Part shown: in pieces, positions 41,770 through 63,927 of the stretch
Layout of the letters: every line of letters starts with the position of its first letter
How positions within the stretch are numbered: position 1 is the stretch's first letter
Source: Oscillospiraceae bacterium
GTDB lineage: Bacteria; Bacillota; Clostridia; Oscillospirales; Oscillospiraceae
DNA: 64,000 nucleotides
NCBI GenBank assembly: GCA_902765595.1
Contig: CACXAQ010000002.1
Location: 124,001-188,000 of the forward strand
Direction of reading: 5' to 3'
The notes under the pieces: model-generated
What the model saw: only the letters and a program-made list of their open reading frames with translations
What the model was told of the DNA's origin: nothing
Database searches by the model: none
Position numbers and translations under genes: made by a program

Positions 41770-42741
41770 ATGGAAAGCGACGGCAAGATGAGAATGCTCC
41801 GGATCCTGGAGCTGCTGCGAAACGAGACAGACGAGCGCCACCCCATTTCTACTGCTGAGATCGAGCGCACCCTGCGCGATCGCTGGGGCCTGGAGGCCTA
41901 CCGCATCACGATCCAGAAGGACATCGCCGCCCTCTGCGCGGCGGGCTATGAGATCGAGACCATCCGCTCCACCCAGAACAAATACTACCTCGCCCGGCGC
42001 CTCTTCGAGCTGCCGGAGCTGAAGCTGCTGATCGACGCGGTGGAGTCCTCGAAGTTCATCACGGCGAAAAAGAGCCGCGTCCTGACCGAAAAGCTCACGA
42101 CCCTCGCCAGCATCAACGAGGCCGGGCAGCTGCGGCGCAACGTCAGCATCGCGGACCGGGTCAAGGCGGGCAACGAGCAGATCTATTACATCATGGATGC
42201 GCTCAACGACGCCATCAACTTAAAGCGCAAGGTGCGCTTTTTGTACTTCGAGTACGACGGCAGGAAGCACCGGCAGCTCAAAAACGGCGGCGAGCCCTAC
42301 ACCCTCAGCCCCTACACGCTGACCTGGAACGGCGATTTTTACTACGTGGTGGGCTGGTCGGACAAGCACGGGAAGATCGCCACCTTCCGGGTGGATCGGA
42401 TCTTCGAGGTGCCGACGATCCTGCCGGACAAGGCCGTGCCGAAGCCGAAGCAATACAGCATCGGGGACTTTGCGGAGAAGGCCTTCCAGCTCTTCGACAG
42501 CGAGCACGCCCGGGTGGAGCTCCTCTGCGAGAACGCCATGATGAACACGGTGCTGGATCACTTCGGCGAGAAGGTCAAGGTCAAAAAGGCCGACGGGGAG
42601 CACTTCACCTTTACCGCCGAGGTCTCCGTCAGCCCCACCTTTTTCGCCTGGGTCTTCGAGTTCGGCGGGAAGATCAAGATCCTCGGCCCCCAGAGCGTCA
42701 AGGACGCCTACGCGGAATTGGTCAAGAAAGCGATGGAATAA
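41770..42741 (+). CDS. WYL-domain transcriptional regulator
   Basis: 323 residues, AAGGAGG ribosome site. Residues 1-75 are a winged helix (MRMLRILELLRNETDERHP, YRITIQKDIAALCAAGYEIE). The WYL domain lies about 140-215, with YTLSPYTLTWNGDFYYVVGW and FRVDRIFEV. A C-terminal WCX-like domain follows. WYL regulators sense ligands, often nucleic acids or nucleotides, and often control defence genes. It is the first gene of the LRR/MoxR/VWA region and a candidate regulator of it (inference). Confidence 0.92.
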   Translation: MESDGKMRMLRILELLRNETDERHPISTAEIERTLRDRWGLEAYRITIQKDIAALCAAGYEIETIRSTQNKYYLARRLFELPELKLLIDAVESSKFITAKKSRVLTEKLTTLASINEAGQLRRNVSIADRVKAGNEQIYYIMDALNDAINLKRKVRFLYFEYDGRKHRQLKNGGEPYTLSPYTLTWNGDFYYVVGWSDKHGKIATFRVDRIFEVPTILPDKAVPKPKQYSIGDFAEKAFQLFDSEHARVELLCENAMMNTVLDHFGEKVKVKKADGEHFTFTAEVSVSPTFFAWVFEFGGKIKILGPQSVKDAYAELVKKAME

Positions 42742-42744
42742 CGC

Positions 42745-42825
42745 GTAGGGAGGCATCCCCAGATGCCTCCGCGGACTTCGCGGACGGCCGGTAAACAGCG
42801 GAGCGATCTGGGGATCGTTCCCTAC
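42745..42825. repeat. GTAGGG...CCCTAC palindromic element
   Basis: GTAGGGAGGCATCCCCAGAT at the left end and GATCTGGGGATCGTTCCCTAC-like complement at the right, with an inner CCGCGGACTTCGCGGA hairpin. It fills most of the spacer before the first LRR gene. Confidence 0.75.
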
Positions 42826-42856: not shown

Positions 42857-44326
42857 ATGAGCAACGCAAGCGATTTCATCATTGAGAACGGCATTTTGAA
42901 AAAGTACGTCGGTCCCGGCGGGGACGTGGTCATCCCGGAGGGCGTGACGAGCATTTATCGAGGGGCGTTTTCTGCCTGTGATAGTCTCAGTAGTGTGACG
43001 ATCCCAGAGGGAGTAACCAGCATTGGAGATCAGGCTTTTGAGTACTGCGAAAATCTGACAAGTGTAAGAATTCCGGATAGTGTGGTCAGCATTGGCGGCT
43101 GGGCGTTCCAAGTATGCAACAACTTGACATGTATTAGCATGGGTCAGTGGTTACGCGGGTTTGAAGAAGTTATGAGCCGGGTAAAGCGTCCTGGTCGGCT
43201 TGACTTCGCCGTCCAAACAGCATCGGCTGTTTCAGCGGTTCACGTAAAAGCGCGGAAAAATGCGCTGCTCGGCTTTGCCGTGGAGAACCCAAAAGATCTG
43301 CTGTCGGAACGGGCACGGTCATATCTGGACTATGCAAAGAAAAATGCGGAAAAACTTGCTGAGTTTGCGATCAGCCATCCTGAATTGCTTTTGTATCTAT
43401 GCGACCACAATCTGATTCTGCCAAAGAACTATGACGCTTATCTTGCCGAAGCTGAAAAAAATGGTGGCACAGAGGAAAAAGCGATTCTGCTCAATTACGG
43501 AAATAAACTTGGCGCCCAGGCAATTGAAGCAGCACGAAAAAAGAAAGAACGAACTATAGAAGCAGGCGACGAACAGTTGATAGAGCGCATGGCGGCTCAG
43601 AATCCAGCTAAAGGCATTGAGGGCATGACTTTCGTCATTGCAGATTTGCCAAAATGGTGGAGATCGAAGAGCCTCCTTAAAGATTTCTTGGTGAGTTACG
43701 GCGCTGTTCTTGAGTCGACGGTTACAAAGAAAACAAACTATCTGGTTGTTGAGGGAATGGACAACCATGTGGAAAAAATAAGCAAAGCACAGAGACTCGG
43801 AGTTCAGATCCTTTCCGGGGAAGACTTCAATGACATGGTTTGCTGGTATTACAAGAATAAAGAGCGCATTTTAGTTCCCGCTTGGATCAAGGAAATCCAA
43901 GGCTTTGCATTCTCAGACTGCAGCAACCTGGAATCCATCAATGTCGCAGAAGAAAGTGCTTTTTTCAAGTCAACAGAGGAAGGCTTGTTGCTATCTGCTG
44001 ACGGGAAAACACTGGTTGCGTGTCCAAGAAAAGTGAAATCTGTTTCAATTCCGGAAGGAGTGACCCTTATCGCCGACAGGGCATTCTATGGTTGCAAGGA
44101 ATTAATTCGTGTTTCGATCCCGGACGGCGTGACGAGCATCGGTGAATGGGCATTTCGCAACTGCGATAGCTTAAAAGATTTGTCTATTCCGCGTAGTGTG
44201 AGGGCTATCGGCCTCCTTGCAATCCCCTCTGCCGGTCGAGGCTATTCAGTGACAATCCATGCTCCGGCTAAAAGTTTTGCAGCGAGATACGCAATAGAAA
44301 ACAACATCCCCTTTGTAGCAGAATGA
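42857..44326 (+). CDS. Cytoplasmic LRR (BspA-type) protein with BRCT domain, paralog 1
   Basis: 489 residues, GAGGAGG ribosome site. It opens with the leader shared by most paralogs (SDFIIENGILKKYVGPGGDV). Residues about 25-95 hold three 23-residue BspA-type LRRs (VTSIGDQAFEYCENLTSVRI). A helical region with KAILLNYGNKLG follows. Residues about 254-320 are a BRCT domain (GIEGMTFVIADL, FLVSYGAVLESTVTKKTNYL). Further LRRs and a HAPAKSFAARYAIENNIPF cap end the protein. No signal peptide or anchor, so unlike secreted BspA proteins it should be intracellular. Confidence 0.87.
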   Translation: MSNASDFIIENGILKKYVGPGGDVVIPEGVTSIYRGAFSACDSLSSVTIPEGVTSIGDQAFEYCENLTSVRIPDSVVSIGGWAFQVCNNLTCISMGQWLRGFEEVMSRVKRPGRLDFAVQTASAVSAVHVKARKNALLGFAVENPKDLLSERARSYLDYAKKNAEKLAEFAISHPELLLYLCDHNLILPKNYDAYLAEAEKNGGTEEKAILLNYGNKLGAQAIEAARKKKERTIEAGDEQLIERMAAQNPAKGIEGMTFVIADLPKWWRSKSLLKDFLVSYGAVLESTVTKKTNYLVVEGMDNHVEKISKAQRLGVQILSGEDFNDMVCWYYKNKERILVPAWIKEIQGFAFSDCSNLESINVAEESAFFKSTEEGLLLSADGKTLVACPRKVKSVSIPEGVTLIADRAFYGCKELIRVSIPDGVTSIGEWAFRNCDSLKDLSIPRSVRAIGLLAIPSAGRGYSVTIHAPAKSFAARYAIENNIPFVAE

Positions 44327-44570: not shown

Positions 44571-45947
44571 ATGGACGAACAACTTGAAAAACGGAATAAG
44601 CTCGCGCTCGACGTGCTGCGTCTTTCCCGCAACACGCTGCTGGTGAATCTGCGCTTTCTGGACGCGGCGCTCAATCAGCTCGAGCCGCTGGCTGTGGAGG
44701 GCCTGACCCTCGCCACGGACGGCGAGGCGCTGGCCTACGATCCCGCCCACGTCCTGCGCCTGTACAGGGACGAGCGCGAGGCGGTCACGCGCGCCTATCT
44801 CCACATGGTGCTGCACGGCGTGTTCCGGCACATGTTTGTGCACACGCTGGTGGATCACCACGTCTGGGATTTGGCCTGCGACATCGCGGCGGAGTACGTG
44901 ATCGCAGGCCTCGGCCTCAAGGCGGCCACCACCCGGCGGGAGCTGCTGCAAAAGAGCGTGTACGCGGAGCTCCAGAAGGAGATCAGGCAGCTCACCGCCG
45001 AGAAGATCTACCGCTATTACCTGGACAAGCAGCTGCCGCCGGAGAAGATTGCAGAGCTGCGCGGCGCGTTTTACAACGACGATCACCGCCTCTGGTACAT
45101 GTCGGAGGCGGAGCGGGCGCTGGCGCTGGGTCGGCCGGTTTCCGTCAGCGTCAGTGTTGAAGATGGCGACGAGGACGGCGAGGGGGAAGACACTCTCCTG
45201 CCCGTTAGCGTCTCGGCTATCGAGGAGCGCTGGGCGGAGATCTCCCGCCGCATGCAGATGGACATGGAGACCTTTTCCAAACAACAGGGCGACCGGGCCG
45301 GGAACCTGATGCAGAACCTGCGGGAGGTCAACCGGGAAAAGTACGACTACACGGCCTTCCTCAAAAAGTTCGCCGTGCGCGGCGAGGCCATGCGTATCAA
45401 CGACGAGGAATTCGATTACGTCTACTACACCTACGGCCTGAAGCTCTACAAGAAAATGCCGCTGGTGGAGCCGCTGGAATACAAGGAGGTCAAGCGTATC
45501 CGGGAGTTCGTGATCGCCATCGACACCTCCGGCTCCGTGGCGGGCGAGCAGGTGCAGAGCTTTTTGCAGAAGACCTTCAACATCCTCAAGAGCACCGAGA
45601 GCTTCTTCTCCAAGATCAACGTCCACATCATCCAGTGCGACGCGACCATCCAGGAGGACGCGAAGATCACCAGCCAGGAGGAGTTTGACGCCTATCTCAA
45701 GAGCATGACGATCCACGGTCTCGGCGGCACGGACTTCCGCCCGGTGTTTTCCTATGTGGACTGGCTGCGGGAGAAGAAGGAGTTTCAAAATCTCAAGGGC
45801 CTCATCTACTTCACCGACGGCTGGGGCATCTTCCCGGCGAAGAAGCCGGACTACGACGCGGCCTTCGTCTTTATCGACGACGGCATCAACAACTACGACG
45901 TGCCGCCTTGGACGATCAAATTGGTATTGCAGAAAGAAGAGATATAA
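44571..45947 (+). CDS. VWA domain protein with N-terminal metallopeptidase-like domain (DUF2201 type)
   Basis: 458 residues, AAGGAG ribosome site. Residues about 70-110 hold YLHMVLHGVFRHMFVH, resembling the His-rich putative metallopeptidase region of VWA-like DUF2201 proteins. An acidic linker (VSVSVEDGDEDGEGED) follows at about 190-208. The C-terminal VWA domain has the MIDAS motif IAIDTSGSVAG (318-322 DTSGS) and GLGGTDFRPVF, and ends NYDVPPWTIKLVLQKEEI. VWA proteins of this kind work with MoxR AAA+ ATPases, here encoded at 53326. Its 3' end is duplicated twice downstream (47477, 49166). Confidence 0.9.
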   Translation: MDEQLEKRNKLALDVLRLSRNTLLVNLRFLDAALNQLEPLAVEGLTLATDGEALAYDPAHVLRLYRDEREAVTRAYLHMVLHGVFRHMFVHTLVDHHVWDLACDIAAEYVIAGLGLKAATTRRELLQKSVYAELQKEIRQLTAEKIYRYYLDKQLPPEKIAELRGAFYNDDHRLWYMSEAERALALGRPVSVSVSVEDGDEDGEGEDTLLPVSVSAIEERWAEISRRMQMDMETFSKQQGDRAGNLMQNLREVNREKYDYTAFLKKFAVRGEAMRINDEEFDYVYYTYGLKLYKKMPLVEPLEYKEVKRIREFVIAIDTSGSVAGEQVQSFLQKTFNILKSTESFFSKINVHIIQCDATIQEDAKITSQEEFDAYLKSMTIHGLGGTDFRPVFSYVDWLREKKEFQNLKGLIYFTDGWGIFPAKKPDYDAAFVFIDDGINNYDVPPWTIKLVLQKEEI

Positions 45948-46095: not shown

Positions 46096-47472
46096 ATGAG
46101 CAGCGCAAGCGATTTTATCATCGAAAACGGTGTATTGAAAAAGTACATCGGCCCCGGCGGGGACGTGGTCATACCGGATGGCGTGACGGAGATCGGGGAT
46201 CATGCATTTTGTACGGTGGAGAGCATCGGCGGCCGTGAACACTTCTGGTTCAACGATACCCTGACGAGAGTGACCCTGCCTGAAGGCTTAGTCAAAATCG
46301 GTAACGGTGCCTTTGACCAGTGCGTCCTGCTTACGCAGATCGTGTTTCCGGAATCCCTGCGGGAGATTGGGGCGCAAGCTTTCCACAGCAGCGGCCTGGT
46401 CGACGTCAAGATCCCGTCAGGCGTCAAGAAGATTGGAGACGAAGCGTTCTGCGCCTTGGGCATATTCAAAATCGTAGACGGGGAAGTCTGGGCGAGCGAA
46501 GAAGGCCGGGACCGCCTGCACACAATCAAAATATGCGGAACACCCAAGATGGGGAAAAGAGTTTTTGGAATCATTGATGGACTACAGGAATACATAGACG
46601 GGAATCTGAAAGTCCAAATTGAGATGGCGGACGACATTCCTTTGCTGCCTCTCGTGCTGTCCTGGACAGACTTTAGCCCGTATCAAAAGGAACATCTGTT
46701 CCTGTTTATGCTGCGGGAGCCGGAGAGATTTCGCCGAGCGGACATCAAGTATGTTGCCGCGAACGTGAAGAAGGGGCAAAAAACGCTGTATCCGGAGCTG
46801 CTCAAGGAGCTTGGCGCGGCAGAGACGGCTTTGTTCCTGGACCTTAACATGGTTGATGCGGAAAACGCGGACACCGTGTTGGAGCTCGTTAAAGACAGGC
46901 CATCGGAAAAAGCGGTTTTCCTGGATTATATCGCAAAGCACGTCACGCTGGAGGCCAGAGAGAACGTAATCGAGAAGAAAGCAGAAAATCAGGTCGAAAA
47001 GATCATCAAAAGAAACAAGGCGATTGAGGAAGCGATCTCCCTCTTTGCGAAAAAGAAGCCAGCGGATGTGAAGAAGGAGTGGGCGGTAACCGAAGTCGAA
47101 GACGGTCTGCGGATCGAACAATACAAAGGAAAGGATGTCTGTATCGTTGTTCCGGCCATGATCGGGAAGGTGGGCGTTGTTGAGATCGCGAATGACGCTC
47201 TGCGGGCCTCCGCGCTAGGTGGCACGAAAAATGCTTATCAAAAGAAGATGTATAAGAACAAGTGCGTTGTGATCCAGGAAGGAGTCCACAAGATCGGTGA
47301 CTATGTTCTTTTCGGATGCGTGTATTTGACGGATATTGTGATTCCGGCTTCGGTAACCGAAATCGGGACCGGCGCCTTCAGAGATTGCCGCAAGCTTACC
47401 ATCCACGCCCCGGCGGGTTCTTATGCCGAACAGTACGCGAGAGATAACAACATCCCCTTCGTGGCGGAATAA
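46096..47472 (+). CDS. Cytoplasmic LRR protein, paralog 2
   Basis: 458 residues, CAGGAGGAAA ribosome site. Shared leader (SDFIIENGVLKKYIGPGGDV), then LRRs to about residue 125 (LREIGAQAFHSSGLVDVKIP). The middle 130-320 is a helical region unlike the other paralogs. A second beta/LRR region (VTEIGTGAFRDCRKLTIHAP) and the cap HAPAGSYAEQYARDNNIPFV follow. No BRCT domain and no signal peptide. Function inferred only from context as one of a set of variable sensor-like proteins. Confidence 0.82.
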   Translation: MSSASDFIIENGVLKKYIGPGGDVVIPDGVTEIGDHAFCTVESIGGREHFWFNDTLTRVTLPEGLVKIGNGAFDQCVLLTQIVFPESLREIGAQAFHSSGLVDVKIPSGVKKIGDEAFCALGIFKIVDGEVWASEEGRDRLHTIKICGTPKMGKRVFGIIDGLQEYIDGNLKVQIEMADDIPLLPLVLSWTDFSPYQKEHLFLFMLREPERFRRADIKYVAANVKKGQKTLYPELLKELGAAETALFLDLNMVDAENADTVLELVKDRPSEKAVFLDYIAKHVTLEARENVIEKKAENQVEKIIKRNKAIEEAISLFAKKKPADVKKEWAVTEVEDGLRIEQYKGKDVCIVVPAMIGKVGVVEIANDALRASALGGTKNAYQKKMYKNKCVVIQEGVHKIGDYVLFGCVYLTDIVIPASVTEIGTGAFRDCRKLTIHAPAGSYAEQYARDNNIPFVAE

Positions 47473-47476
47473 AACC

Positions 47477-47578
47477 CCCGACTACGACGCGGCTTTCGTC
47501 TTCGTAGACGACGGCATGAACAACTACGACGTGCCGCCTTGGGCGATTAAATTGGTATTGCAGAAGGAAGAGATATAG
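47477..47578 (+). pseudogene. Duplicated 3' end of the VWA gene, scar 1
   Basis: 33 codons and a stop reading PDYDAAFVFVDDGMNNYDVP and then PWAIKLVLQKEEI, the last 33 residues of the VWA protein with three substitutions. It sits directly after the LRR paralog 2 stop, with no VWA upstream, so it is a leftover of a duplicated block. Confidence 0.9.
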
Positions 47579-47599: not shown

Positions 47600-49162
47600 A
47601 TGAACGAGCAACAACAAAACTTTGTGAAAAATATCATGGAAAACAGCGATGGCAGCGAGAAGCGCATCGGGGATTTCGTTATTCGGAACGACTATGGTTC
47701 TCATGCATACTATGTTGGTCCGGGAGGGGATGTGGTGATCCCGGAAGAGGTTGGGAAAGCTGATCTCAACTTTACATTTGAAAGTAGCAGGAATATTTTT
47801 TCTCTTCAATTTCCCGGTACAGTAACAAGGCTCTCGGATTTCTTCAGATTTGGTAGCAAGGAAACAATTGAAAAGCTGGTGTTCGAAGAAGGTCTGGAAG
47901 CGATTTGGGGTGGGAGTTTTTTCGCCAACTGCAAAAGCTTGAAAGAGGTCTTATTGCCGCAGTCATTGGAGTATTTGGGCCAAGGAGCGTTCAAAAAGAC
48001 GCCCTGGTATGAGCAAAACGTGGAGATCATAGACGGTTGCCACTACTTGGGGAGATTCCTGGTCGATTCGGATAAGGCGATCAAACATGCCGTTGTACGG
48101 AGTGGAACCGTCATGATCTGCGCCAATGCGTTTCGCGGACGCACAGAGTTGATAGGCGTGTCTATACCTGATTCTGTCCATACTCTCGGACAAATGGCCT
48201 TCTGTGGGTGCGTTTCTCTGGAAAAGATCATTCTCCCAGAGAGCGTAAAAAGAGTCGAAGAATCATGCTTCACAAACTGCCCAGCTCTGCGGAGCATCGA
48301 AGTGCTGAATACGAATGTTGCCTTTGCCCACAACGCACTCGGTTCAAAGATGAGCAAGGCCCTTTATTATCCGGATCACGCATACATCCCCATTGAGATC
48401 CCGGGGTCCGGCGTGGAAAAGCTCCTTTTCGCCCACTGCTATCTCACCAGCCGGGAGCGCTTCTCCCCGGAGCTGCAGGCGTTCAACGACGCTGTTGTTA
48501 AAAAGAACAAAAGCAAACTGCTTGAACTGGTGATGGAGACCGGGAACCTTGCTGCATTGCAGGCGATCGCGCCATTTGCACTCAATGCAGCCAATATTGA
48601 TAAGCTGGTCGAGCTCGCGCAGAGAAAGGGAGCGACAGAGTTTACGGCTTTCCTTCTGGAATGGCGGGGGAAGAACATTAGTACTGCTGATCGGGATAGG
48701 CAGGCGGCGAAAGAATTGAACCGAGATCCGCTGAGCGCGACAGAACTGAAAAAGCTCTGGAATACAAAAAAGCTCCCGGACGGCACACTGGGGATCACGT
48801 CATACAAGGGAAACGAAAGCGAGATCGTGATTCCTGCGTCTATCGGCAAGGCGAAGGTGACCGTGATCTGCCGCGAGGCATTCAGCGCATCGGATTATTC
48901 GCCTGTAGGAAAAAAAGTTTCGGAGGAGCAACGCGCTGTACGAAAAGCCATTCGATCGGTGCGGATTCCGTTAGGTGTGACAAAGATCGAAATATCTGCT
49001 TTTGAATGCTGCGATCATTTGGAACATGTATATATGCCTGTGAGCATGAAAGATGTAAGTGGGGCATTTTACGGCTGCAATCAACTTACCATCCACGCGC
49101 CCGCAGGCTCCTATGCCGAGCAGTACGCGAAAGAGAACAACATCCCCTTCGTGGCGGAATAA
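47600..49162 (+). CDS. Cytoplasmic LRR protein, paralog 3
   Basis: 520 residues, AGGAGG ribosome site. A diverged leader (RIGDFVIRNDYGSHAYYVGP then GGDVVIPEEV), LRRs to about residue 230 (ELIGVSIPDSVHTLGQMAFC), a helical region with EFTAFLLEWRGKNI, a linker, and a C-terminal LRR region ending HAPAGSYAEQYAKENNIPFV. Clearly more AT-rich than the adjacent VWA, MoxR and exonuclease genes. No BRCT and no signal peptide. The copied VWA 3' end lies on both sides of it. Confidence 0.82.
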   Translation: MNEQQQNFVKNIMENSDGSEKRIGDFVIRNDYGSHAYYVGPGGDVVIPEEVGKADLNFTFESSRNIFSLQFPGTVTRLSDFFRFGSKETIEKLVFEEGLEAIWGGSFFANCKSLKEVLLPQSLEYLGQGAFKKTPWYEQNVEIIDGCHYLGRFLVDSDKAIKHAVVRSGTVMICANAFRGRTELIGVSIPDSVHTLGQMAFCGCVSLEKIILPESVKRVEESCFTNCPALRSIEVLNTNVAFAHNALGSKMSKALYYPDHAYIPIEIPGSGVEKLLFAHCYLTSRERFSPELQAFNDAVVKKNKSKLLELVMETGNLAALQAIAPFALNAANIDKLVELAQRKGATEFTAFLLEWRGKNISTADRDRQAAKELNRDPLSATELKKLWNTKKLPDGTLGITSYKGNESEIVIPASIGKAKVTVICREAFSASDYSPVGKKVSEEQRAVRKAIRSVRIPLGVTKIEISAFECCDHLEHVYMPVSMKDVSGAFYGCNQLTIHAPAGSYAEQYAKENNIPFVAE

Positions 49163-49165
49163 AAA

Positions 49166-49266
49166 CCCGACCTCGACGCAGCCTTCGTCTTTGTGGACAA
49201 CGGCCTGAACAACTACGACGTGCCCCATGGGCGATCAAGCTGGTATTGCGAAAGGAAGAGAAATAA
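49166..49266 (+). pseudogene. Duplicated 3' end of the VWA gene, scar 2 (frameshifted)
   Basis: Reads PDLDAAFVFVDNGLNNYDVP, then loses one base relative to scar 1 at the CCTTGG position and shifts frame, while the DNA still matches the VWA end up to the GAAGAGAAATAA stop region. Same position relative to LRR paralog 3 as scar 1 has to paralog 2. Confidence 0.88.
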
Positions 49267-49316
49267 GAAACTTTAATTATACTAATAATGCTCTAATAAT
49301 TAGGGAGGAACACAAG

Positions 49317-50975
49317 ATGAGCTATGTCGGAGAAATCAAAGATGGCGTATTGAAACGCTACGTCGATGCCCCAGGTGCAAAACTGAAGATTTCGACGAAA
49401 GCAACTGTCATTGGGCCGAGTGCATTTAAAGGGAAAAACAGTCTCAGAGAGGTTGTGCTACATGATTCCGTCACAGAGATCGGCAGCAATGCATTCAGCG
49501 GATGTGAGAATCTGACGAAGATTAACTTTCCGGAAGGACTCCGGGAGATCGGCGAGCAGGCATTCATGGGCTGCAAAAATATTCGAGAAGTGCAGCTTCC
49601 TTCCACGCTGGAGAAAATTGGCGGCTTTGCATTCTCAGACACAGCATGGCTGAAGGAAGCAGACGAAAACCTCTATGCCGCCGGCTTCTTATTGCGCGCT
49701 TTTCTGCAAGACGGTGAATTTGAAATAGCGCCGGGAACCCGTGGTGTTGTAGGCGGCGCGTTTGAGGGCTGCGCCAATCTGAACAAGCTCACGATCCCCG
49801 AAGGAGTAACCTTCCTCGGCGATGGGATCTTCCGTTCAAGATATGGAAATGGCCCTGAATGGGATAAGCTGGAGGAAATTGTGATTCCGGACTCCGTGAC
49901 ATATATCGGCGCGGAGGCCTTTTCTGGCTGCACTGCACTTTGCCGCATCATAATCAGCGAGGAAACTGTAAAGCGTCTCGGCCAACGCATGATCGAGCGC
50001 GCATTCTTCGGCGTCAGCGTCATGGACTACAGGCGCGCCGCAGAAGCGTACCGTAAGAGCCTGCCGCTACGTGCGCTGCAGGGAGATCCTATCGAACTCA
50101 GCGCTCTGCGCGAACCGCTCGATGTGTTTCTTCGCAAAAAGGACACCCGCGCAGAGCTCTTTCCGTTCCTAATCGAAAACGATATGCCGCATTCACTTAC
50201 AGCGGCGCTAAAGGCGCAGAAAAAGCTGCCGCTGGATGAGCTTGAAACATATCTTGACCTGGCGGAAAAGAAGCAATCCGTCGAGCTCAAGGCTATACTC
50301 ATGGATTATCAGAACAGCAAGTTCACCGTGAAAGAAAAAGAGAAAAAAGCACGGGAGGACGATGAAAAGGCTCTGGGGATGAAGGAACTCTCCCTTGCAG
50401 ACTGGAGAAAAATTTTCAAGGTTGCCGTCAAGGACGGCAAGGCCACAATTTCCGGCTATGTGGGCAATGAGCCTGAAGCGACGATTCCCGAAACTATCGG
50501 CAAGTATATCGTGACAGAGATCAAGGAACGAGCGTTTTCCGGCAATAAAACCCTGAACCATCTGGACATTCAGGCGAAGCTTAAGACGATTCCTCAAAAA
50601 GCATTCGAGCGGAGTGCGCTTGTTTCGCTGAAAATGCCGGATTCTGTTAAGTCGATCGGTTCCGAAGCGTTCGTTGGCTGCACCAATTTGGAAACGATAC
50701 ATTTGTCAAAAAAGCTTCAGACAATTGGATTTGCCGCTTTCCGCCATTGCAGCAACCTTCAATCCCTTTCGCTCCCAAATGGATTGAAAACGATACACTC
50801 TTGGGCATTTGCTTACTGCGGTGCGTTAAAACGCGTCGATCTGCCGGATACTGTGGTGGAAATGACTGTGGGCAATGAATTCTTCTTTTGCGAGAATCTC
50901 ACCATCCACGCACCCGTCGGCTCCTATGCCGAGCAGTATGCAAAAGAGAACAACATCCCCTTCGTGGCGGAGTGA
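49317..50975 (+). CDS. Cytoplasmic LRR protein, paralog 4
   Basis: 552 residues from ATG 49317 behind AGGGAGGA; an in-frame extension into scar 2 is rejected. Leader diverged (GEIKDGVLKRYVDAPGAKLK). LRRs about 35-210, a helical region with ELKAILMDYQNSKF, a linker LSLADWRKIFKVAVKDGKAT shared with paralog 8, a second LRR block (LKTIPQKAFERSALVSLKMP) and the cap HAPVGSYAEQYAKENNIPFV. No BRCT domain. Confidence 0.84.
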   Translation: MSYVGEIKDGVLKRYVDAPGAKLKISTKATVIGPSAFKGKNSLREVVLHDSVTEIGSNAFSGCENLTKINFPEGLREIGEQAFMGCKNIREVQLPSTLEKIGGFAFSDTAWLKEADENLYAAGFLLRAFLQDGEFEIAPGTRGVVGGAFEGCANLNKLTIPEGVTFLGDGIFRSRYGNGPEWDKLEEIVIPDSVTYIGAEAFSGCTALCRIIISEETVKRLGQRMIERAFFGVSVMDYRRAAEAYRKSLPLRALQGDPIELSALREPLDVFLRKKDTRAELFPFLIENDMPHSLTAALKAQKKLPLDELETYLDLAEKKQSVELKAILMDYQNSKFTVKEKEKKAREDDEKALGMKELSLADWRKIFKVAVKDGKATISGYVGNEPEATIPETIGKYIVTEIKERAFSGNKTLNHLDIQAKLKTIPQKAFERSALVSLKMPDSVKSIGSEAFVGCTNLETIHLSKKLQTIGFAAFRHCSNLQSLSLPNGLKTIHSWAFAYCGALKRVDLPDTVVEMTVGNEFFFCENLTIHAPVGSYAEQYAKENNIPFVAE

Positions 50976-51069
50976 TTGCGATTTGTAAGATCAGATTTAA
51001 AAAATAAAGCGCAAAAACTGATGCGATAACTGACTACATACAAATTGACGGATATTGGAGGAAAGACAC

Positions 51070-52858: not shown

Positions 52859-53329
52859 ATGGATAAAACGGATAACCAACTCAAATATGAAAACTACCGC
52901 GAGCAGTTCAAACGCCTAAACAGCGCCCTGAGTAATGGCTTTAATCTGGAAGCCATGTTTATTGAGTACGCGATCATGGAGGATCGGACAGAATCAATTC
53001 TTCGACATGCGGAAAAGTGGGAGGCATATATAAAAAGCCGCAAGGGGCGCGACCCTACGATCAATTCCAAAGTCAAGTACATCCAAAAACTTGCGGCGTT
53101 CAATAATGACCCACTGCACAAGTATTTCTCTGACAGCCTGCTTGATCGACTCTTGGTGTGGAAAGATGAGCGCAACCGCCTTATCCATGCCCTGCTGAAA
53201 CAACAGCTGGAGCATAATGAGGTCAGCGAACTGGCGGCGCAGGGCAAGCAGCTTGTGGACGAGCTGCGGAACAGAGCCAATAAGTATAATCGGGCAATCG
53301 ACCGTAAGAGAGCAAAGGACACGCCATGA
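52859..53329 (+). CDS. HEPN-like helical protein
   Basis: 156 residues, all-helical by composition. It contains FNLEAMFIEYAIMEDRTESI and, near residues 100-110, WKDERNRLIHALLKQ, in which R-N-x3-H matches the R-polar-x(3-5)-H motif of HEPN RNases and nucleotidyltransferase partners. Its TGA overlaps the MoxR ATG (ATGA), so the two are co-translated. HEPN proteins commonly act as RNA-cleaving effectors in conflict systems, but this assignment is from the short motif only. Ten bases separate it from LRR paralog 5. Confidence 0.55.
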   Translation: MDKTDNQLKYENYREQFKRLNSALSNGFNLEAMFIEYAIMEDRTESILRHAEKWEAYIKSRKGRDPTINSKVKYIQKLAAFNNDPLHKYFSDSLLDRLLVWKDERNRLIHALLKQQLEHNEVSELAAQGKQLVDELRNRANKYNRAIDRKRAKDTP

Positions 53330-54933: not shown

Positions 54934-55011
54934 CAAGCTGTCGCAGATCTGCGGCAGCTTGCGGCGTTTTGGGGATTCTTGGTTGAAAACAGCGTATTTA
55001 CCCGGTATAAT
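54934..55011 (+). promoter_or_regulatory. Terminator-promoter cassette, copy C
   Basis: CAAGCTGTCGCAGA pairs with TCTGCGGCAGCTTG (54934-54961), then CGGCGTTTTGGGGATT, TTGAAA (54983-54988), 17-base spacer and TATAAT (55006-55011). Copies D and E lie before the LRR genes at 58163 and 60550; A and B share the GCTGTCGCA...GGCGTTTTGGGG frame. Confidence 0.85.
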
Positions 55012-58027: not shown

Positions 58028-58039
58028 GCAGAGATTATG

Positions 58040-58117
58040 CAAGCTGTCGCAGATCTGCGGCAGCTTGCGGCGTTTTGGAGGATTCCGGTTGAAAAGAGTA
58101 TCTATACCCAGTATAAT
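58040..58117 (+). promoter_or_regulatory. Terminator-promoter cassette, copy D
   Basis: Hairpin CAAGCTGTCGCAGA/TCTGCGGCAGCTTG (58040-58067), TTGAAA (58089-58094), 17-base spacer, TATAAT (58112-58117). Confidence 0.85.
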
Positions 58118-58162
58118 GAGCTTATCATAACCCGGAAAAACGACACACAGGAGGAAACAAGC

Positions 58163-58999
58163 ATGAGCAACTCAAGCGATTTCATCATCGAAAACGGTGT
58201 TCTGAAAAAATATGTCGGCCCCGGCGGGGATGTGGTCATCCCGGAGGGCGTGACGGAAATATTCTCCGTTCCGTTCTGCGACTTCCCGGAACCTTTTACG
58301 CTGACCCTTTCCGGCAGCATGAAGTGCTCTTTTGGTGATCTGCTCTCGCAGAGCATGACAAAACTGACGATCCCGGCCGGTACAGTATTCGACTGCAGCT
58401 ATGAAGGCCCGAATCACACAGCGTTCTACAGCTTGCTCAAGGAGATCCGTGTAGACCCGGCAAACCCGTACTGCGTTTCGAAAGATGGCATTCTCTACAG
58501 TAAGGACATGACGATTCTGTATGTATGCCCTGCTGCGCACGAAGGAAAGGTCGTGATCCCGGATACCGTGACGAAGATTGGATCTCACGCTTTCGACAGC
58601 TGCGTCGGACTGAAAGAGATCGTCATTCCTGCCTCTGTCGAAGAAATCGGGGAGCGCGCTTTTGTAGACTGCAAGGCGCTCAGCAAGCTGACTTTGTTAG
58701 GTACAGACACAAGGATCGGGGCAGAGGCTTTTCTGCGCTGCGGCAAGCTCACTTCGGCCGGTCTGGTCGGAACACAGAAGGGGAAAGGATATTCCTACGA
58801 ATTCTCTTGGGAGGATGCGCTTCCCGAGAATGCGTTTTCCGGGATGAACAAGCTAAAGACTGTTGTATTGCCAGAGAGCGTGAAGATGATCGGGAAAAAC
58901 GCCTTCAAGGGCTGTAAGGCGCTGGAACAGATCAATCTGCCGGTAGATGTCAAATATGACAAAAAGGCTTTTAAGGATTGCGCAAAGCTGTCCCTGTAA
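58163..58999 (+). CDS. Short cytoplasmic LRR protein, paralog 7
   Basis: 278 residues from ATG 58163 behind CAGGAGGAAA. Leader identical to paralog 6 (SDFIIENGVLKKYVGPGGDV), a diverged first LRR region, then clear LRRs (VTKIGSHAFDSCVGLKEIVI) to the C-terminus. It ends in mid-LRR (YDKKAFKDCAKLSL) without the usual HAPAGSYAEQY cap, so it looks C-terminally truncated. Paralog 8 begins eight bases later. Paralogs 7 and 8 may be one gene broken or two joined. Confidence 0.75.
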   Translation: MSNSSDFIIENGVLKKYVGPGGDVVIPEGVTEIFSVPFCDFPEPFTLTLSGSMKCSFGDLLSQSMTKLTIPAGTVFDCSYEGPNHTAFYSLLKEIRVDPANPYCVSKDGILYSKDMTILYVCPAAHEGKVVIPDTVTKIGSHAFDSCVGLKEIVIPASVEEIGERAFVDCKALSKLTLLGTDTRIGAEAFLRCGKLTSAGLVGTQKGKGYSYEFSWEDALPENAFSGMNKLKTVVLPESVKMIGKNAFKGCKALEQINLPVDVKYDKKAFKDCAKLSL

Positions 59000-59007: not shown

Positions 59008-60180
59008 ATGGCAAACGCGAAAGATTATACCATTCAGGCGGGAAGACTTGTCCGTTACTGCGGGAAGGAGACCAGGATTACCGTCCCTGACGACGTGACG
59101 AGCATCGGCCGCCGCGCTTTCTATAGGAACGCTACGATCACTTCCGTGACGCTCCCAGCCGGTGTTGACACGGTGGAGCAGGAAGCCTTTGAATACTGCC
59201 ATGCGCTGAAGGAAATCAACATTCTGGGGACGATCAAAACGGCTGGCGTGAGGGCTTTTGGCTCGTTTGACGATCCAAAGAAGAAAGAACTGGAGATCTC
59301 CGTTTATGCATCGGTTCCCATTCGCGCGTTTACAAAAGCGGCGCAGGAAGCGGTGCTTCGTACATTCTCCCGACGCTTCTCAGAGTTTGACCAGAAAGCG
59401 GAAGCGTTCCGGGACAATCTCAATTTTATCGGGACGCACCTAAAACAGCCCCAAGCGTTTCAAAATGATAAATTCTATCATTTCCTCTCTGACAATAGCG
59501 CGCTTCGCCATGCGGTGCTGGATGCAGATGCGATACCGATCAAGGATGTTGATTGGCTGGTGGACGCGATTCAGGCTGAGGGAAACACAGCATTCGTCGC
59601 AGAGCTTTTGGATTACAGGAACCGGATTCTCTTGGATGGGAAGATCAAGCAGGCGCAGGAGAGGTCTCAAGCCCGGGCGGAAAAGAAAGCGCTTAATGCA
59701 GAGATGAGCGCCGCAGACTGGCGCAAGCTGCTAAAGTTTTCCTATGAGGACGGGGCGGTAGTCATCAAAGAAGTCAGGATCAAGGAGCCGGTCATTGAAC
59801 TGCCTGACCGTATCGGCGAGCGGCGTGTTCGTGTTATCGACCGACGGGCGTTTTCTTACAATCTGAAGCCGGGCGAAAAGGAGCTGTGGTCCCCCGATAA
59901 AATCGTCATCCCGGAGGGTGTAGAGGAGATCCGCAAAGGCGCATTTTACTGTGTAAGCGGTGCGGAGATTTTCTTTCCCGCTACCATTCGGGCGCTTCCT
60001 GAAGGCTGCTTTGTCGCTGCGGAAAACCTGATTTTGCATCTGCCTGCAACAATAGAAGAACTCCCGGAGGAATTAAGTTGGGATGACTTTACGCCCATCA
60101 AAGCCATCCACGCGCCCGCGGGTTCTTATGCCGAAAAATATGCGAAGGAGCACGGTGTTCCCTTTGTTGTTGAGGAGTGA
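59008..60180 (+). CDS. Cytoplasmic LRR protein, paralog 8
   Basis: 390 residues from ATG 59008; no ribosome site, so translation may depend on re-initiation after paralog 7 (a TTG at 58978 is the alternative). It starts with a diverged leader (KDYTIQAGRLVRYCGKETRI), two LRRs, a helical region with FVAELLDYRNRILL, the linker MSAADWRKLLKFSYEDGAVV seen in paralog 4, then a beta/LRR region and the cap HAPAGSYAEKYAKEHGVPFV. No BRCT. Directly followed by a copy of the exonuclease gene start. Confidence 0.75.
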   Translation: MANAKDYTIQAGRLVRYCGKETRITVPDDVTSIGRRAFYRNATITSVTLPAGVDTVEQEAFEYCHALKEINILGTIKTAGVRAFGSFDDPKKKELEISVYASVPIRAFTKAAQEAVLRTFSRRFSEFDQKAEAFRDNLNFIGTHLKQPQAFQNDKFYHFLSDNSALRHAVLDADAIPIKDVDWLVDAIQAEGNTAFVAELLDYRNRILLDGKIKQAQERSQARAEKKALNAEMSAADWRKLLKFSYEDGAVVIKEVRIKEPVIELPDRIGERRVRVIDRRAFSYNLKPGEKELWSPDKIVIPEGVEEIRKGAFYCVSGAEIFFPATIRALPEGCFVAAENLILHLPATIEELPEELSWDDFTPIKAIHAPAGSYAEKYAKEHGVPFVVEE

Positions 60181-60183
60181 CCT

Positions 60184-60323
60184 ATGGACGAACTGACCAT
60201 TCTCACCCGGCAGGAGCCGGGGATCGCGGAGCTTGACAAATAGCATTCGCCCACAACAGAGAGCTTCTCTTCTGCGAGCGGCAGAAGGAGATCATCACCG
60301 AGCTGGAGAATCTGGAGCTGTAA
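60184..60323 (+). pseudogene. Chimeric scar: exonuclease gene start joined to MoxR gene end
   Basis: 60184-60243 reads MDELTILTRQEPGIAELDK then stop, matching the first residues of the 62590 gene (MEELTILTRQEPGIAEL). 60246-60323 reads FAHNRELLFCERQKEIITEL then ENLEL and stop, matching the last 25 residues of MoxR. A deletion joined the two, implying an ancestral neighbour pair exonuclease-MoxR. Confidence 0.9.
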
Positions 60324-60426: not shown

Positions 60427-60504
60427 CAAGCTGTCGCAGATCTGCGGCAGCTTGCGGCGCATTGGGGATTTCTGGTTGAAAATGGCGGATGCTGAATATA
60501 TAAT
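60427..60504 (+). promoter_or_regulatory. Terminator-promoter cassette, copy E
   Basis: Hairpin CAAGCTGTCGCAGA/TCTGCGGCAGCTTG (60427-60454), TTGAAA (60476-60481), 17-base spacer, TATAAT (60499-60504). Confidence 0.85.
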
Positions 60505-60549: not shown

Positions 60550-62586
60550 ATGAGCAATCCCAGCGATTTCATCATTGAAAACGGCGTTCTGACGAAATAT
60601 GTCGGCCCCGGCGGGGATGTGGTCGTGCCGAATGGCGTGACTGTCATTGCCTCAAATGCATTCAAAGGCTGTGCAAACCTGACTGGCATAGTGATTTCGG
60701 AGAGCGTGACCGAAATCGGCGACTTTGCGTTTTGTGCTTGCAAAGATCTTCTGAATGTTACGTTTCCCAACATCCTTGAGAGCATCGGGAACAATGCGTT
60801 TTTTAATTGCAAAAACCTGACAAACCTCACCATACCCAAAAGCGTAAAGAGCATCGGAAGCGGAGCCTTCGGAGGCTGCGAAAAATTGGTGAGCATTTCG
60901 ATCCCGGACAACTTAACAAGCATTGGACACAGCGCCTTTTCCGGGTGTAAGAGTCTCGCAGAGTTCGTGATCCCGAGTTCCATTACAGATATCAAGCTCG
61001 GAACTTTTTCAGGATGCCAAAGCCTGAAAAGTCTGGCGATTCCGGAAGGCGTCGTGAACATTGAGGACGATGCTTTTTCCGGCTGCAGCGGTTTGACCGA
61101 AATCATCCTGCCGAGCGGGATCACAAAGATCAACCGCCGCGTTTTCGAAAGATGCAAGAGCCTTGCGCGTGTTTCGATTCCGGACTGCGTAACGGATATC
61201 GGGCGCGGCGCTTTTTCCCGGTGCGAGAGCCTGGAAAGCATAACGATCCCGGAAGGCATAACGAATCTCGGGGATTGGGCGTTTTTCGAGTGCGGAAGTT
61301 TGTCGAACGTAACAATTCCGACCGGCGTGAAGAACATCGGGGGATCAACGTTCGCACGATGCGGTAGTCTGACGGAGATCGCAATTCCGGAGGGCGTAAC
61401 AGAGATCGATAAGGAAGCCTTTTTTTCATGTACAAATTTGAGAAGTGTACATCTTCCAGACAGTATCGTAAAGATAGGAGAGAGCGCCTTTGCCTGCTGC
61501 CCCTCCCTTTCTGAAATCACGATCTCCGATCATGCCGGAAAGTATCGGTCAATAGACGGCGTGTTATTCAGCAAAGATGGGAAAAAGCTGATCGCGTTTC
61601 CTGCGGGACACAAAGGCGATACCTACGTCGTTCCCGACCAAACGGAACAGATCACACCTTATGCTTTTTATGGTGCGGAGCGGCTGAAGCGAATCACACT
61701 TCCTCAATCTTTGAAGAGCATTGGCGGCAACGCCTTTAAGCGTGTCGGCATCCCCTTCCTGACAGTTCCTCGGTCGGTTGCAAAGCTGCCGCAAAAGGCG
61801 TTTAATACCTCGGCCACGGAGCAAATCGACGATCTGCACGCGATTTCTTGTGTCATCCCATACGTCGCCGTATACGCGGCGGACATGGTTGGCGCTTTGG
61901 TACGCCCGATATACATCGGGGGGCCATTGACCGATATACCTGCAAAACTGAAGAACAGCGCAGTTGAAGGATTCTTTTATGCCGTGCAGCACGAAGTCGT
62001 TGATATTCTCCCGTTCAGGCAAAGCTATCTGGACCACATCAAGAGAAACAGCAAAACGTACGCAAAGCAGGCGGGTGAGGACGAGCCTGTCCTGCATCTT
62101 ATGGTCGAAGAAGCGCTGCTGTCCGATAAGGACGTCGAGTCGCTCCTGGATAAATTCACGGCGCAAAATCGCCCTGATCTTATCGCCGAACTGCTGGACT
62201 ATCAGAATGTGCAGTTTGTTGGAAAGAAAGTCCGTTCTTCCGCTTTTTACGTATCCGGGGAAGCGAAACGTTTACAGAAGATGCTTGAGCGTCGTGAGAC
62301 GATCAAGCGGCAGAAAGGCATCAAGGGAATCGCTTTTGTTCAGACCGGTGTGCTACAGGAATTTGGATATTATGATGAATACACCGGCGCGAAAGATATG
62401 AGCGATCTGAAGGAGTATATCGAGGATCGCGGCGGTTTTCTGCGCAGTGCGGTCAGCTCCAACACGGACTATCTGATCTGCAATGATCCGAACAGCAATT
62501 CCACGAAAAGTCAAAAAGCCAAAGAGCTGGGAGTGCCAGTCATCACCGAGGAAGAATTCCTCAGAATGGCGAACGAAAAGGAGTAA
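60550..62586 (+). CDS. Long cytoplasmic LRR protein with C-terminal BRCT domain, paralog 9
   Basis: 678 residues, CAGGAGG ribosome site. Shared leader (SDFIIENGVLTKYVGPGGDV), then about thirteen LRRs to residue 330, the longest array here (VKSIGSGAFGGCEKLVSISI). A helical region follows with LIAELLDYQNVQFVGKKVRS, and a C-terminal BRCT domain (GIKGIAFVQTGVLQEFG, EYIEDRGGFLRSAVSSNTDY, LICNDPNSNSTKSQKAKELG, VPVITEEEFL). It lacks the HAPAGSYAEQY cap. Three bases separate it from the exonuclease gene, so the two are one transcript from cassette E. Confidence 0.88.
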   Translation: MSNPSDFIIENGVLTKYVGPGGDVVVPNGVTVIASNAFKGCANLTGIVISESVTEIGDFAFCACKDLLNVTFPNILESIGNNAFFNCKNLTNLTIPKSVKSIGSGAFGGCEKLVSISIPDNLTSIGHSAFSGCKSLAEFVIPSSITDIKLGTFSGCQSLKSLAIPEGVVNIEDDAFSGCSGLTEIILPSGITKINRRVFERCKSLARVSIPDCVTDIGRGAFSRCESLESITIPEGITNLGDWAFFECGSLSNVTIPTGVKNIGGSTFARCGSLTEIAIPEGVTEIDKEAFFSCTNLRSVHLPDSIVKIGESAFACCPSLSEITISDHAGKYRSIDGVLFSKDGKKLIAFPAGHKGDTYVVPDQTEQITPYAFYGAERLKRITLPQSLKSIGGNAFKRVGIPFLTVPRSVAKLPQKAFNTSATEQIDDLHAISCVIPYVAVYAADMVGALVRPIYIGGPLTDIPAKLKNSAVEGFFYAVQHEVVDILPFRQSYLDHIKRNSKTYAKQAGEDEPVLHLMVEEALLSDKDVESLLDKFTAQNRPDLIAELLDYQNVQFVGKKVRSSAFYVSGEAKRLQKMLERRETIKRQKGIKGIAFVQTGVLQEFGYYDEYTGAKDMSDLKEYIEDRGGFLRSAVSSNTDYLICNDPNSNSTKSQKAKELGVPVITEEEFLRMANEKE

Positions 62587-62589
62587 TCC

Positions 62590-63927
62590 ATGGAAGAGCT
62601 GACTATACTCACCCGGCAAGAGCCAGGGATCGCGGAGCTGTATAACTTCGACGAGATTAAAGCCTATCTTGACCAAAGGCTGGATGCCTACCGAAATCTG
62701 GTCTATTCGAAGGACAGCCTGAAGACTGCCAAGGCGGACAAGGCCCAGCTCAACAAGCTGAAAAAGGCGCTGGATACCCGCCGCAAGGAGATCAAGGCCA
62801 TCTACATGGAGCCCTATCTGCGCATCGAGGCCCAGATCAAGGAGCTCACCGCCATGATCGACGAGCCGCTGGCGGCCATCGACGGCTTCGTCAAGGACAT
62901 GGAGGCCGAGGAAAAGCGGCAGAAGCGGGAGCTGATCCGGGACTGGTACCGGAAGGAGGCCGCTCCGCTGGGCGAGCTTTGGGAAAAGGTCTTTGAAGCG
63001 CCGGGCTTTGTGGACGCCAAATGGCTCAACAAGAGCTGCAAGGCCGCCGAATGGCAGCAGGCTGTGCGGGAGAAGATCGCCCGGGCCGCTGCGGATATCC
63101 AGACCATTCAAAACACCGCCGGGGCGCACACGACAGCCGTGTTGACCAAGTACCTTGACGGTATGGATCTGGCCGCGGCGACTGCTTTCAAGCGCGAACT
63201 CGAGGTCACAGCGGAAGTCGCGGAAACCGAGGTAACAACAGTCGAGGACGAGGATCGCACCGTCGGCTACAAAGTTCTGAAGGTCTCCGGCACCCAGCGG
63301 CAGATGGAGCAGCTTTTGGAGCAGTTGGAGCTGATGGGCATGGACTGTGACGTGCTGGAGGACGGCATGCCTCAGCCCATGAGGGAGCTGATGAAGCCCG
63401 ACTTTGACAGCTTCGTGGCCTTCGACATCGAGACCAGCGGCACCTTCGGCGCAGCCAGTGGCGACATGCCCGCGGAGATTACCGAGATCGGCGCCTCCAA
63501 GGTGATCGACGGCAAGGTTGTAGAGTGGAAGGACTGGTTCTGCAATCCTGGACGGAAGATCGTCCCTCGTATTGCCCGCCTGACCCATATCACCGACGAC
63601 ATGGTGGCCGATGCGCCAAGCGTGGAAGAAGTGATCCGGGAGTTCGCGGCCTTCGTCGGTGATCTGCCGCTGGTGGGACACAACATCAAAAGCTCCGACC
63701 TGCACTACATTAACCGCGCGCTCAAGCGGGCAGGCGTCGCCATGGACAACGGCTTCTTCGATACCTATCTCTATGCCAAAACGCTGAAGGATCGCTATGG
63801 CTGGGAGAACGTAAAGCTGGAGTATCTGTCCCAGGTCTTCGGTGTGGAGCAGCCGGAGGCCCACCGCGCTTACTGCGATGCCGAGGCCAACGTCGGCGTG
63901 TATTTCAAGCTGAAAGAATTGGACTGA
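62590..63927 (+). CDS. DUF1351-like protein fused to DEDDh 3'-5' exonuclease
   Basis: 445 residues. Residues 1-260 resemble phage DUF1351 proteins (YRNLVYSKDSLKTAKADKAQ, RRKEIKAIYMEPYLRIEAQI), with long helices. Residues about 274-445 form a DnaQ-fold exonuclease: FDIETSG (Asp279, Glu281), LVGHNIKSSDLHYINR (Asp370) and HRAYCDAEAN (His425, Asp430) complete the DEDDh set. It should remove nucleotides from DNA or RNA 3' ends. The ATG lies four bases after the paralog 9 stop. Its 5' end is duplicated in the scar at 60184. A phage-derived helper and a nuclease in one chain suggest a nucleic-acid-processing role. Confidence 0.88.
   Translation: MEELTILTRQEPGIAELYNFDEIKAYLDQRLDAYRNLVYSKDSLKTAKADKAQLNKLKKALDTRRKEIKAIYMEPYLRIEAQIKELTAMIDEPLAAIDGFVKDMEAEEKRQKRELIRDWYRKEAAPLGELWEKVFEAPGFVDAKWLNKSCKAAEWQQAVREKIARAAADIQTIQNTAGAHTTAVLTKYLDGMDLAAATAFKRELEVTAEVAETEVTTVEDEDRTVGYKVLKVSGTQRQMEQLLEQLELMGMDCDVLEDGMPQPMRELMKPDFDSFVAFDIETSGTFGAASGDMPAEITEIGASKVIDGKVVEWKDWFCNPGRKIVPRIARLTHITDDMVADAPSVEEVIREFAAFVGDLPLVGHNIKSSDLHYINRALKRAGVAMDNGFFDTYLYAKTLKDRYGWENVKLEYLSQVFGVEQPEAHRAYCDAEANVGVYFKLKELD

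Follow-up and report, generated by a model that had tools for sequence, protein, structure and literature searches.

A MoxR-vWA locus with leucine-rich repeat proteins as a candidate conflict system in an Oscillospiraceae bacterium

We analysed a 64,000-nt stretch of contig CACXAQ010000002.1 (GCA_902765595.1, Oscillospiraceae bacterium; forward-strand positions 124,001-188,000), here called the window, from a genome of 2.1 Mb that is 84% complete. The locus at 41770-63927 of the window combines leucine-rich repeat (LRR) genes with genes for a MoxR AAA+ ATPase and for a protein with a von Willebrand factor type A (VWA or vWA) domain. The constant core of this system is an LRR protein, often with a domain that we name MID, together with a DUF2201-type VWA protein and the MoxR ATPase; the other genes are accessory. 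We interpret it as a MoxR-vWA switch with a cytoplasmic LRR(-MID) protein as third component, likely used in defence against phages or other mobile DNA, and we give this interpretation about an even chance of being right.

The core was defined by comparison with other genomes. Even draws were made from the order (197 genomes), the class (391) and the phylum (398). A search for MoxR matched 24 of the 197 genomes of the order, 14 of them strongly (E below 1e-80 in the order search), and a profile search matched 24 of the 391 genomes of the class at 1e-20, the window's own genome included in both counts. At 1e-40, 7 of the 398 genomes of the phylum matched, three of them outside the class. The surroundings of MoxR were retrieved from 36 other strongly positive genomes of the order and class draws (the even sample); ten genomes with weaker matches (E above 1e-80) were not fetched. 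Of these stretches, 35 have a VWA gene at MoxR, 29 have LRR and 22 have MID, whereas DEDDh (3), WYL (2) and DUF4132 (1) are rare. Most often the three core genes follow one another, as LRR-VWA-MoxR (16 stretches) or VWA-MoxR-LRR (8; both counted by hand), and LRR or MID lay within 5 kb of MoxR in 22 of the 25 stretches that had 5 kb on both sides. A first-pass annotation of this DNA had tied the LRR genes to the MoxR-VWA pair, and this linkage recurs across the even sample.

Of 455 relatives found, we also examined the 80 nearest named ones, many of them on short contigs (L-numbers denote fetched loci of relatives and G-numbers genomes). Here LRR was present in 61 loci, MID in 59, VWA in 58, DUF4132 in 17, HEPN in 5, WYL in 3 and DEDDh in 2; the LRR, MID and VWA counts vary by one or two, as genes in relatives were called as crude longest open reading frames (ORFs) favouring profile-matched ones, and some VWA genes (e.g. 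that of L029) are hidden by antisense ORFs. The DUF4132 counts come from a profile that replaced a first one inflated by its MID tail. Given the counts in both sets, we assigned LRR(-MID), VWA and MoxR to the core. The first-pass annotation had placed DUF4132 in the core and had treated WYL and DEDDh as regular parts; at these frequencies all three were rejected as core components. Among the 86 loci with full MoxR and VWA genes, 14 have no LRR gene, 42 have one, 14 have two and 16 have three or more, and the nine of the window are the most. The LRR cluster of the window is not a product of chance, because 26 of the 28 LRR_5 matches of its genome fall in this locus.

MoxR and VWA retain their Walker and MIDAS motifs, respectively. 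In MoxR, Walker A residues G40, P42, G43, G45, K46 and T47 and the Walker B stretch L118-F-L-D-E122 are invariant across 36 sequences. In 24 aligned VWA sequences, the metal ion-dependent adhesion site (MIDAS) D318-T-S-G-S322 is invariant, as are H78, H82, H87, D104 and E108 of the metallopeptidase-like N-terminus. Since the glutamate of the metallopeptidase motif HExxH is missing after H78, the N-terminus is probably not a protease.

MID, a domain of about 90 residues common to the LRR proteins, is encoded by eight of the nine LRR genes of the window (it is absent from LRR7, 58037-58999) and by 122 of the 155 LRR ORFs of the window and the 80 nearest relatives. The LRR-DUF4132 fusion has it too, and so do some genes next to MoxR that lack LRRs, such as an ankyrin-like gene in L074 (read by eye) and a DUF6273 gene in L097. 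In the 36 MoxR-positive genomes, 21 of which had a match, 27 of 32 MID matches (hand count) fell within 20 kb of MoxR; these surroundings are about 1.6% of the roughly 93 Mb scanned. In the order draw, taken to be the same for MoxR and MID, MID was found in 10 of the 197 genomes, comprising 8 of the 14 strong MoxR-positives and 2 of the 183 others, both without a MoxR match; two further positives had weak matches. The sequences behind the MID profile came from the surroundings of MoxR, and G007, at least, was in both the building and the search sets. MID marks the system better than LRR_5, which was common elsewhere in the MoxR-positive genomes among the matches listed. The predicted structure of MID has six helices (pLDDT 82, pTM 0.66); structure comparison gave no clear structural relative, and the domain belongs to no known family. 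In four Oscillibacter-like loci (L060, L068, L071, L072), a gene of 308-329 codons between VWA and MoxR has a MID-like tail by eye, and the one of the four given to Pfam, that of L060, had no match there. The reach of MID may be wider than the profile shows.

The LRR proteins look cytoplasmic. A hydrophobic N-terminal stretch, defined by a hydropathy rule rather than a signal-peptide program (15-residue mean hydropathy of at least 2.0 in the first 90 residues), was present in 2 of 138 LRR-MID proteins compared with 19 of 24 control LRR proteins. The controls came from 20 stretches of MoxR-positive genomes, chosen from listed matches away from MoxR, and none of the 24 has MID. These results agree with the first-pass annotation, which had seen no secretion signal, and we rejected the alternative that the proteins are secreted BspA-like adhesins.

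Pairs of related loci were compared across the VWA-MoxR interval. Between the window and L029, the WYL (96%), VWA (93%) and MoxR (96%) proteins are nearly the same, whereas their LRR proteins are at best 38% identical across most of the sequence, or 47% if only the LRR part of LRR6 is taken. DNA identity falls right after the VWA stop codon and resumes at the MoxR start, 16% of the shorter interval is alignable (at 71.5%), and a SIR2_2/AbiH-like gene in L029 takes the position of the HEPN gene. L033 and L034 show the same swap pattern, with DUF4760 in one and HEPN in the other, each overlapping MoxR by 4 bp; core proteins are 93-97% identical in the two swap pairs. L050 and L052 have no interval sequence in common. 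In L044 and L048, conversely, the interval is 99.7% identical and the LRR gene has a synonymous divergence (dS) of 0.000 and a nonsynonymous divergence (dN) of 0.003, against a dS of 1.20 for VWA and 0.70 for MoxR. The identical block extends from the last ~126 nt of VWA to near the MoxR start, and by these divergences it is a recent transfer of the interval. L048 and L051 have a near-identical core (dS 0.04-0.05), but that LRR gene differs between them with a dS of 0.32. In total, 17 pairs were compared: in three the interval is unrelated or almost so, one is the recent transfer, twelve share the interval wholly or partly, and the last (L035/L109) proved to be the same genome twice and was set aside. 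The pattern reads as exchange of LRR genes by allele replacement in the nearer relatives of the window, and the window/L029, L033/L034 and L044/L048 pairs lend support to the interchangeability proposed at first pass. Other genes of these and related loci were named by eye: an IS110-type transposase-like gene between WYL and VWA in L029 (4013-5194), and SbcD- and SbcC-like genes downstream in L034 (13828-17348) and L057 (13978-17876).

The gene that overlaps MoxR, previously called HEPN-like, has a supported HEPN helical fold. The HEPN superfamily is characterised by the motif R-x4-6-H. R105, N106 and H110 are invariant in six homologues down to 26% identity, in agreement with this motif, and the protein is likely a ribonuclease effector. 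Some relatives carry a HEPN, SIR2_2/AbiH-like or DUF4760 gene in the VWA-MoxR interval; Pfam, run on part of the interval genes, identified DUF4760 in five loci (L033, L036, L037, L042, L063) and SIR2_2 in one. We infer that these genes may serve as effectors.

Fragments of neighbouring genes lie beside several LRR genes of the window. LRR3 and LRR4 are each directly preceded by a copy of the VWA 3' end, a MoxR 3' end lies 5' of LRR9, and the 5' end of the DEDDh gene follows LRR8. A VWA tail also lies between an LRR gene and MoxR in L030. Tails of core genes were seen only in the window and L030 among the 116 loci and the window searched; no N-terminal, middle or pre-terminal VWA or MoxR piece was found in the window, and three weak N-terminal matches were found elsewhere. 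The fragments look like stacking scars. Given these tails and the closeness of their length to the exchange border of L044/L048, it is probable that some LRR genes brought along the end of the core gene preceding them. The irregular joins of the fragments, together with the general ease with which repeat-rich genes recombine, would also suit an array of LRR genes that spreads selfishly by recombination and has nothing to do with the MoxR-VWA pair next to it. We consider this very unlikely, as MID (21 of 36 genomes) is mostly at MoxR, whereas LRR_5 in general is genome-wide and the 24 controls are devoid of MID.

Some of the LRR genes also seem to share regulation. LRR6, LRR7 and LRR9 have in common a 216-nt segment (repeat D4, 77-86%) that is made up of the leader and roughly 120 nt upstream. 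The upstream DNA holds the same promoter-like TTGAAA-17-TATAAT site and an exact 28-bp near-palindrome. Promoter-like sites numbered 12 against 9.4 expected, and only these three scored 11 of 12. The 26-bp core of the palindrome occurs at only these three places in the window's genome when up to 3 mismatches are allowed, and it is also present behind MoxR in L030. The near-palindrome looks like an operator, and the WYL protein is a candidate for binding it.

A conflict role is plausible, and a mechanism can be proposed. The LRR part would recognise a ligand in the cytoplasm, with alleles differing in the ligand they recognise, MID would dock the LRR protein on VWA, and MoxR would use ATP to remodel VWA or the LRR protein. 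This remodelling would release or activate the partner gene product encoded next to MoxR, here the HEPN ribonuclease, which would halt growth. Recombination within the terminal parts of VWA and MoxR would exchange the alleles. The nine receptors of the window would feed one switch as a repertoire. A conflict locus could also have another target, such as allorecognition or protection from the toxins of rivals, with LRR proteins neutralising incoming proteins directly. Stacked divergent LRR genes do recall immunity arrays, and many relatives are from gut and rumen samples. We nevertheless think this unlikely, as Pfam recognised no toxin-delivery gene among the 20 proteins submitted to it (second half of the window only) and an ATPase pair would be superfluous for simple binding.

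Several observations weigh against the defence interpretation. First, the VWA-MoxR gap is at least 150 bp in 41 of the 86 loci and below 150 bp in 45, and an LRR gene lies between VWA and MoxR in only two even-sample stretches (L109, L123). An exchange slot between VWA and MoxR is therefore not general, because LRR genes of the even sample are mostly outside the interval and more than half of the gaps are short. In addition, HEPN, DUF4760 or SIR2_2 directly precedes MoxR in 7 of the 80 loci with an upstream gene, the window included, and HEPN is away from MoxR in G007. In some single-LRR pairs, the LRR gene diverges along with the core (L139/L141, 93%) and looks orthologous. There was no sign of positive selection on LRR genes in dN/dS where computable (0.07-0.37 compared with 0.02-0.13 for the core). 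Finally, the first-pass annotation had looked to enrichment near known defence genes, and no clear enrichment was seen in the short flanks of 19 even-sample cassettes, compared with control regions placed by hand, one per genome. In the 144 of 145 flank proteins and 145 of 147 control proteins used (one and two large ones were left out), 54 and 14 PADLOC families were matched, respectively, but most of the 25 flank families listed were single GajB-like and E1-E2-like matches. The families matched more than once, among those listed, were mad3 (6 flank, 6 control) and mad2 (3 and 1). The flanks, for which 25 of 181 Pfam families were listed without a control set, carry ordinary genes such as ABC transporters, sulphur transport, ThiW and ferredoxins.

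Such flanks would fit a MoxR-VWA chaperone of ordinary physiology, engaged in complex assembly or metal insertion like RavA-ViaA, with the LRR proteins as substrate adaptors and the interval genes as passengers. Most even-sample genomes have one LRR gene next to the core, and in some pairs it is orthologous and evolves with the core; both point the same way, and MoxR-vWA pairs are known chaperones (PMC7159879, in the part available). However, the patchy distribution (24 of 391 genomes of the class) and the whole change of the interval between some close relatives, with toxin-like genes swapped, argue against it, and we regard this explanation as possible yet rather doubtful.

If the defence interpretation is true, the locus would illustrate how a receptor repertoire arises and is renewed in a bacterium, with cytoplasmic LRR proteins exchanged while the ATPase switch stays constant. 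In eukaryotes, LRR receptors are characteristic of innate immunity. Tentatively, and somewhat short of an even chance, we would see the locus as a bacterial counterpart of the LRR immune receptor loci of plants and animals, with many LRR sensors, one helical adaptor, a single AAA+/vWA switch, cassette exchange and a repertoire partly under a common locus-specific operator. The adaptor domain MID, the recombination borders and the HEPN/SIR2-like/DUF4760 partner set are named here for testing.

Every gene named by the first-pass annotation was recovered on the forward strand from ORFs and Pfam (Table 1), including the WYL, VWA, MoxR, HEPN-like, LRR-DUF4132 and DUF1351-DEDDh genes. Its count of nine LRR genes holds if the DUF4132 fusion is added to the eight stand-alone genes, and the C-terminal cap it described as shared is present in six of the nine (repeat family D5). 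BRCT is found in three LRR proteins, encoded at 42857 (LRR1), 51055 (LRR5) and 60550 (LRR9). Judging from conserved leaders, the third, fourth, seventh and eighth LRR genes probably start later than the longest ORF (47636, 49317, 58163 and 59008). Upstream, the window contains at 32280-38043 an 897-codon gene whose product combines RNA polymerase alpha-CTD repeats with sigma-70 region 4, a 404-codon gene of no known function and a SNF2 helicase gene, possibly a second conflict-type operon; the first gene has homologues in 4 of the 197 order genomes and inside 5 of the 80 loci nearest to the window. An AAA_14-DUF4143 ATPase gene follows at 38731-40083 and was also found in 2 of the 80 relatives. 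Beyond the position of the window end, L192 (2307-4911) has Fic-like and type I restriction methyltransferase-like genes, named by eye, after the DEDDh gene, and its contig then ends.

Table 1. Features of the LRR-MoxR-vWA locus, in window positions.
Feature	Position	Strand	Evidence
WYL-WCX transcriptional regulator, accessory	41770-42741	+	Pfam WYL 3.5e-14, WCX 3.6e-8; 96% identical in L029
LRR1, LRR-MID-BRCT-LRR	42857-44326	+	LRR_5 3.2e-42; BRCT 5e-4, just under Pfam cut-off; MID 3.2e-22
VWA (DUF2201) with DUF2201_N metallopeptidase-like N-terminus, core	44571-45947	+	Pfam DUF2201 1.9e-12, DUF2201_N 6.9e-8
LRR2, LRR-MID	46096-47472	+	LRR_5 2.2e-27; MID profile
Fragment, last 35 codons of VWA gene, just 5' of LRR3	47471-47575	+	tblastn 88.6%; repeat family D6
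LRR3, LRR-MID	47600-49162	+	Pfam, MID profile; leader ATG 47636
Fragment, VWA 3' tail, just 5' of LRR4	49163-49225	+	tblastn 85.7% over 21 codons, to VWA of L065
LRR4, LRR-MID-LRR	49227-50975	+	Pfam, MID profile; leader ATG 49317
LRR5, LRR-MID-BRCT-LRR	51055-52848	+	Pfam, MID profile; leader MSSVSDF begins six codons into ORF
HEPN protein, likely ribonuclease effector (predicted)	52859-53329	+	4-bp overlap with MoxR; no Pfam match of its own
MoxR AAA+ ATPase, core	53326-54837	+	Pfam AAA_5 3e-8, bpMoxR 1.8e-6
28-bp near-palindrome, copy 1	54934-54961	.	Exact repeat in window
Promoter-like TTGAAA-17-TATAAT (11 of 12), copy 1	54983-55011	+	Promoter-site scan
LRR6, LRR-DUF4132 fusion with C-terminal MID	55057-57909	+	DUF4132 4e-26; MID 9.8e-10
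28-bp near-palindrome, copy 2	58040-58067	.	Exact repeat in window
Promoter-like site, copy 2	58089-58117	+	Promoter-site scan
LRR7, LRR only	58163-58999	+	Longest ORF from 58037; conserved leader puts start at 58163
LRR8, LRR-MID	59008-60180	+	Longest ORF from 58978; conserved leader puts start at 59008
Fragment, 5' start of DUF1351-DEDDh gene	60173-60233	+	Repeat D8, 85%
Fragment, last 25 codons of MoxR gene, 5' of LRR9	60246-60320	+	tblastn 88%; repeat D7
28-bp near-palindrome, copy 3	60427-60454	.	Exact repeat in window
Promoter-like site, copy 3	60476-60504	+	Promoter-site scan
LRR9, LRR-MID-BRCT	60550-62586	+	LRR_5 8.3e-104; BRCT 8.6e-8; MID profile
DUF1351-DEDDh exonuclease, accessory	62590-63927	+	Pfam 7.8e-30 (DUF1351), 5.9e-25 (DEDDh); PADLOC DEDDh 1.6e-27

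The locus resembles several known systems in part. The E. coli yehI-yehK-yehL-yehM-yehP-yehQ stretch likewise holds DUF4132, MoxR and VWA genes together, and the DUF4132 domain here is homologous to that of the yehI stretch (3.6e-12). The alignments of YehL with MoxR and of YehP with VWA, however, do not extend beyond the P-loop and MIDAS regions (hhalign probability 15% and 0.6%), and neither MID nor LRR matched YehI, L, M, P or Q even at E up to 10. We rejected a close kinship with yehL/yehP, genes that the first-pass annotation had cited for comparison. Compared with the HEPN proteins of MNT-HEPN and MntA-HpeT toxin-antitoxin systems and of Csm6, the neighbours here are LRR5 and MoxR rather than a nucleotidyltransferase antitoxin. 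In its MID-BRCT stretch, LRR5 matches the PADLOC candidate PDC-S48 over residues 298-461 (2.3e-15) and the NCBIfam anti-phage family GapS2 over residues 329-450 (4.1e-7, below cut-off); GAPS2 is among the Providencia defence systems in the available part of PMC12935923. The LRR5 matches may rest largely on BRCT. The DEDDh gene also matches PDC-S48, and the parts of PDC-S48 and GapS2 are here in separate proteins with LRRs. BspA-type surface proteins share LRR_5 repeats with the proteins of this locus, which differ in having MID and no signal peptide by the hydropathy rule.

The closest likeness is to the MoxR-vWA ternary conflict systems. In the parts of the sources available, PMC7159879 describes VMAP, iSTAND, FtsH and beta-propeller types, PMC8195603 adds iSTAND2 and TERNS3, and PMC10907252 reports sensors diversified by diversity-generating retroelements in MoxR systems, with no LRR among what turned up there. 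In the same portions, LRR appears in PMC7159879 only in a reference title and in PMC8195603 only in other contexts (12 of 13 places), and DUF4132 in neither; no description of an LRR-VWA-MoxR system was found in the searched, partly available open-access PMC literature. The shared features are the MoxR-vWA core, encoded by adjacent genes (35 of the 36 stretches have VWA at MoxR), a third component peculiar to each system, and effectors that vary, for which HEPN, SIR2_2/AbiH-like and DUF4760 would stand here. The third component differs in being LRR-MID and the VWA in being DUF2201-type. Pfam, which covers both FtsH and beta-propeller domains, detected neither in the 14 genes of the cassette. 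VMAP, iSTAND, iSTAND2 and TERNS3 gave no Pfam match, the library having been unchecked for models of the four and MID not compared with them. The ternary systems have effectors fused to the vWA C-terminus via vWA-L, whereas the VWA here stops directly behind its vWA domain in the 24 sequences aligned (no search was made for vWA-L as a gene of its own). The MoxR N-terminus (MNIKEAKE...) and P-loop (GPPGIGKT in 36 sequences) differ from the WxhapG/PsWRxa motifs at the MoxR N-terminus of VMAP and from the GXXXTAKS P-loop often seen in the FtsH and beta-propeller types (PMC7159879, available part). Because the vWA-effector fusion, these MoxR motifs and the FtsH or propeller component are absent, we regard the system as a variant of the MoxR-vWA kind, probably outside the described types. 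Unlike those, which the available part of PMC7159879 places preponderantly in multicellular prokaryotes, it occurs in anaerobic clostridia of the gut and rumen.

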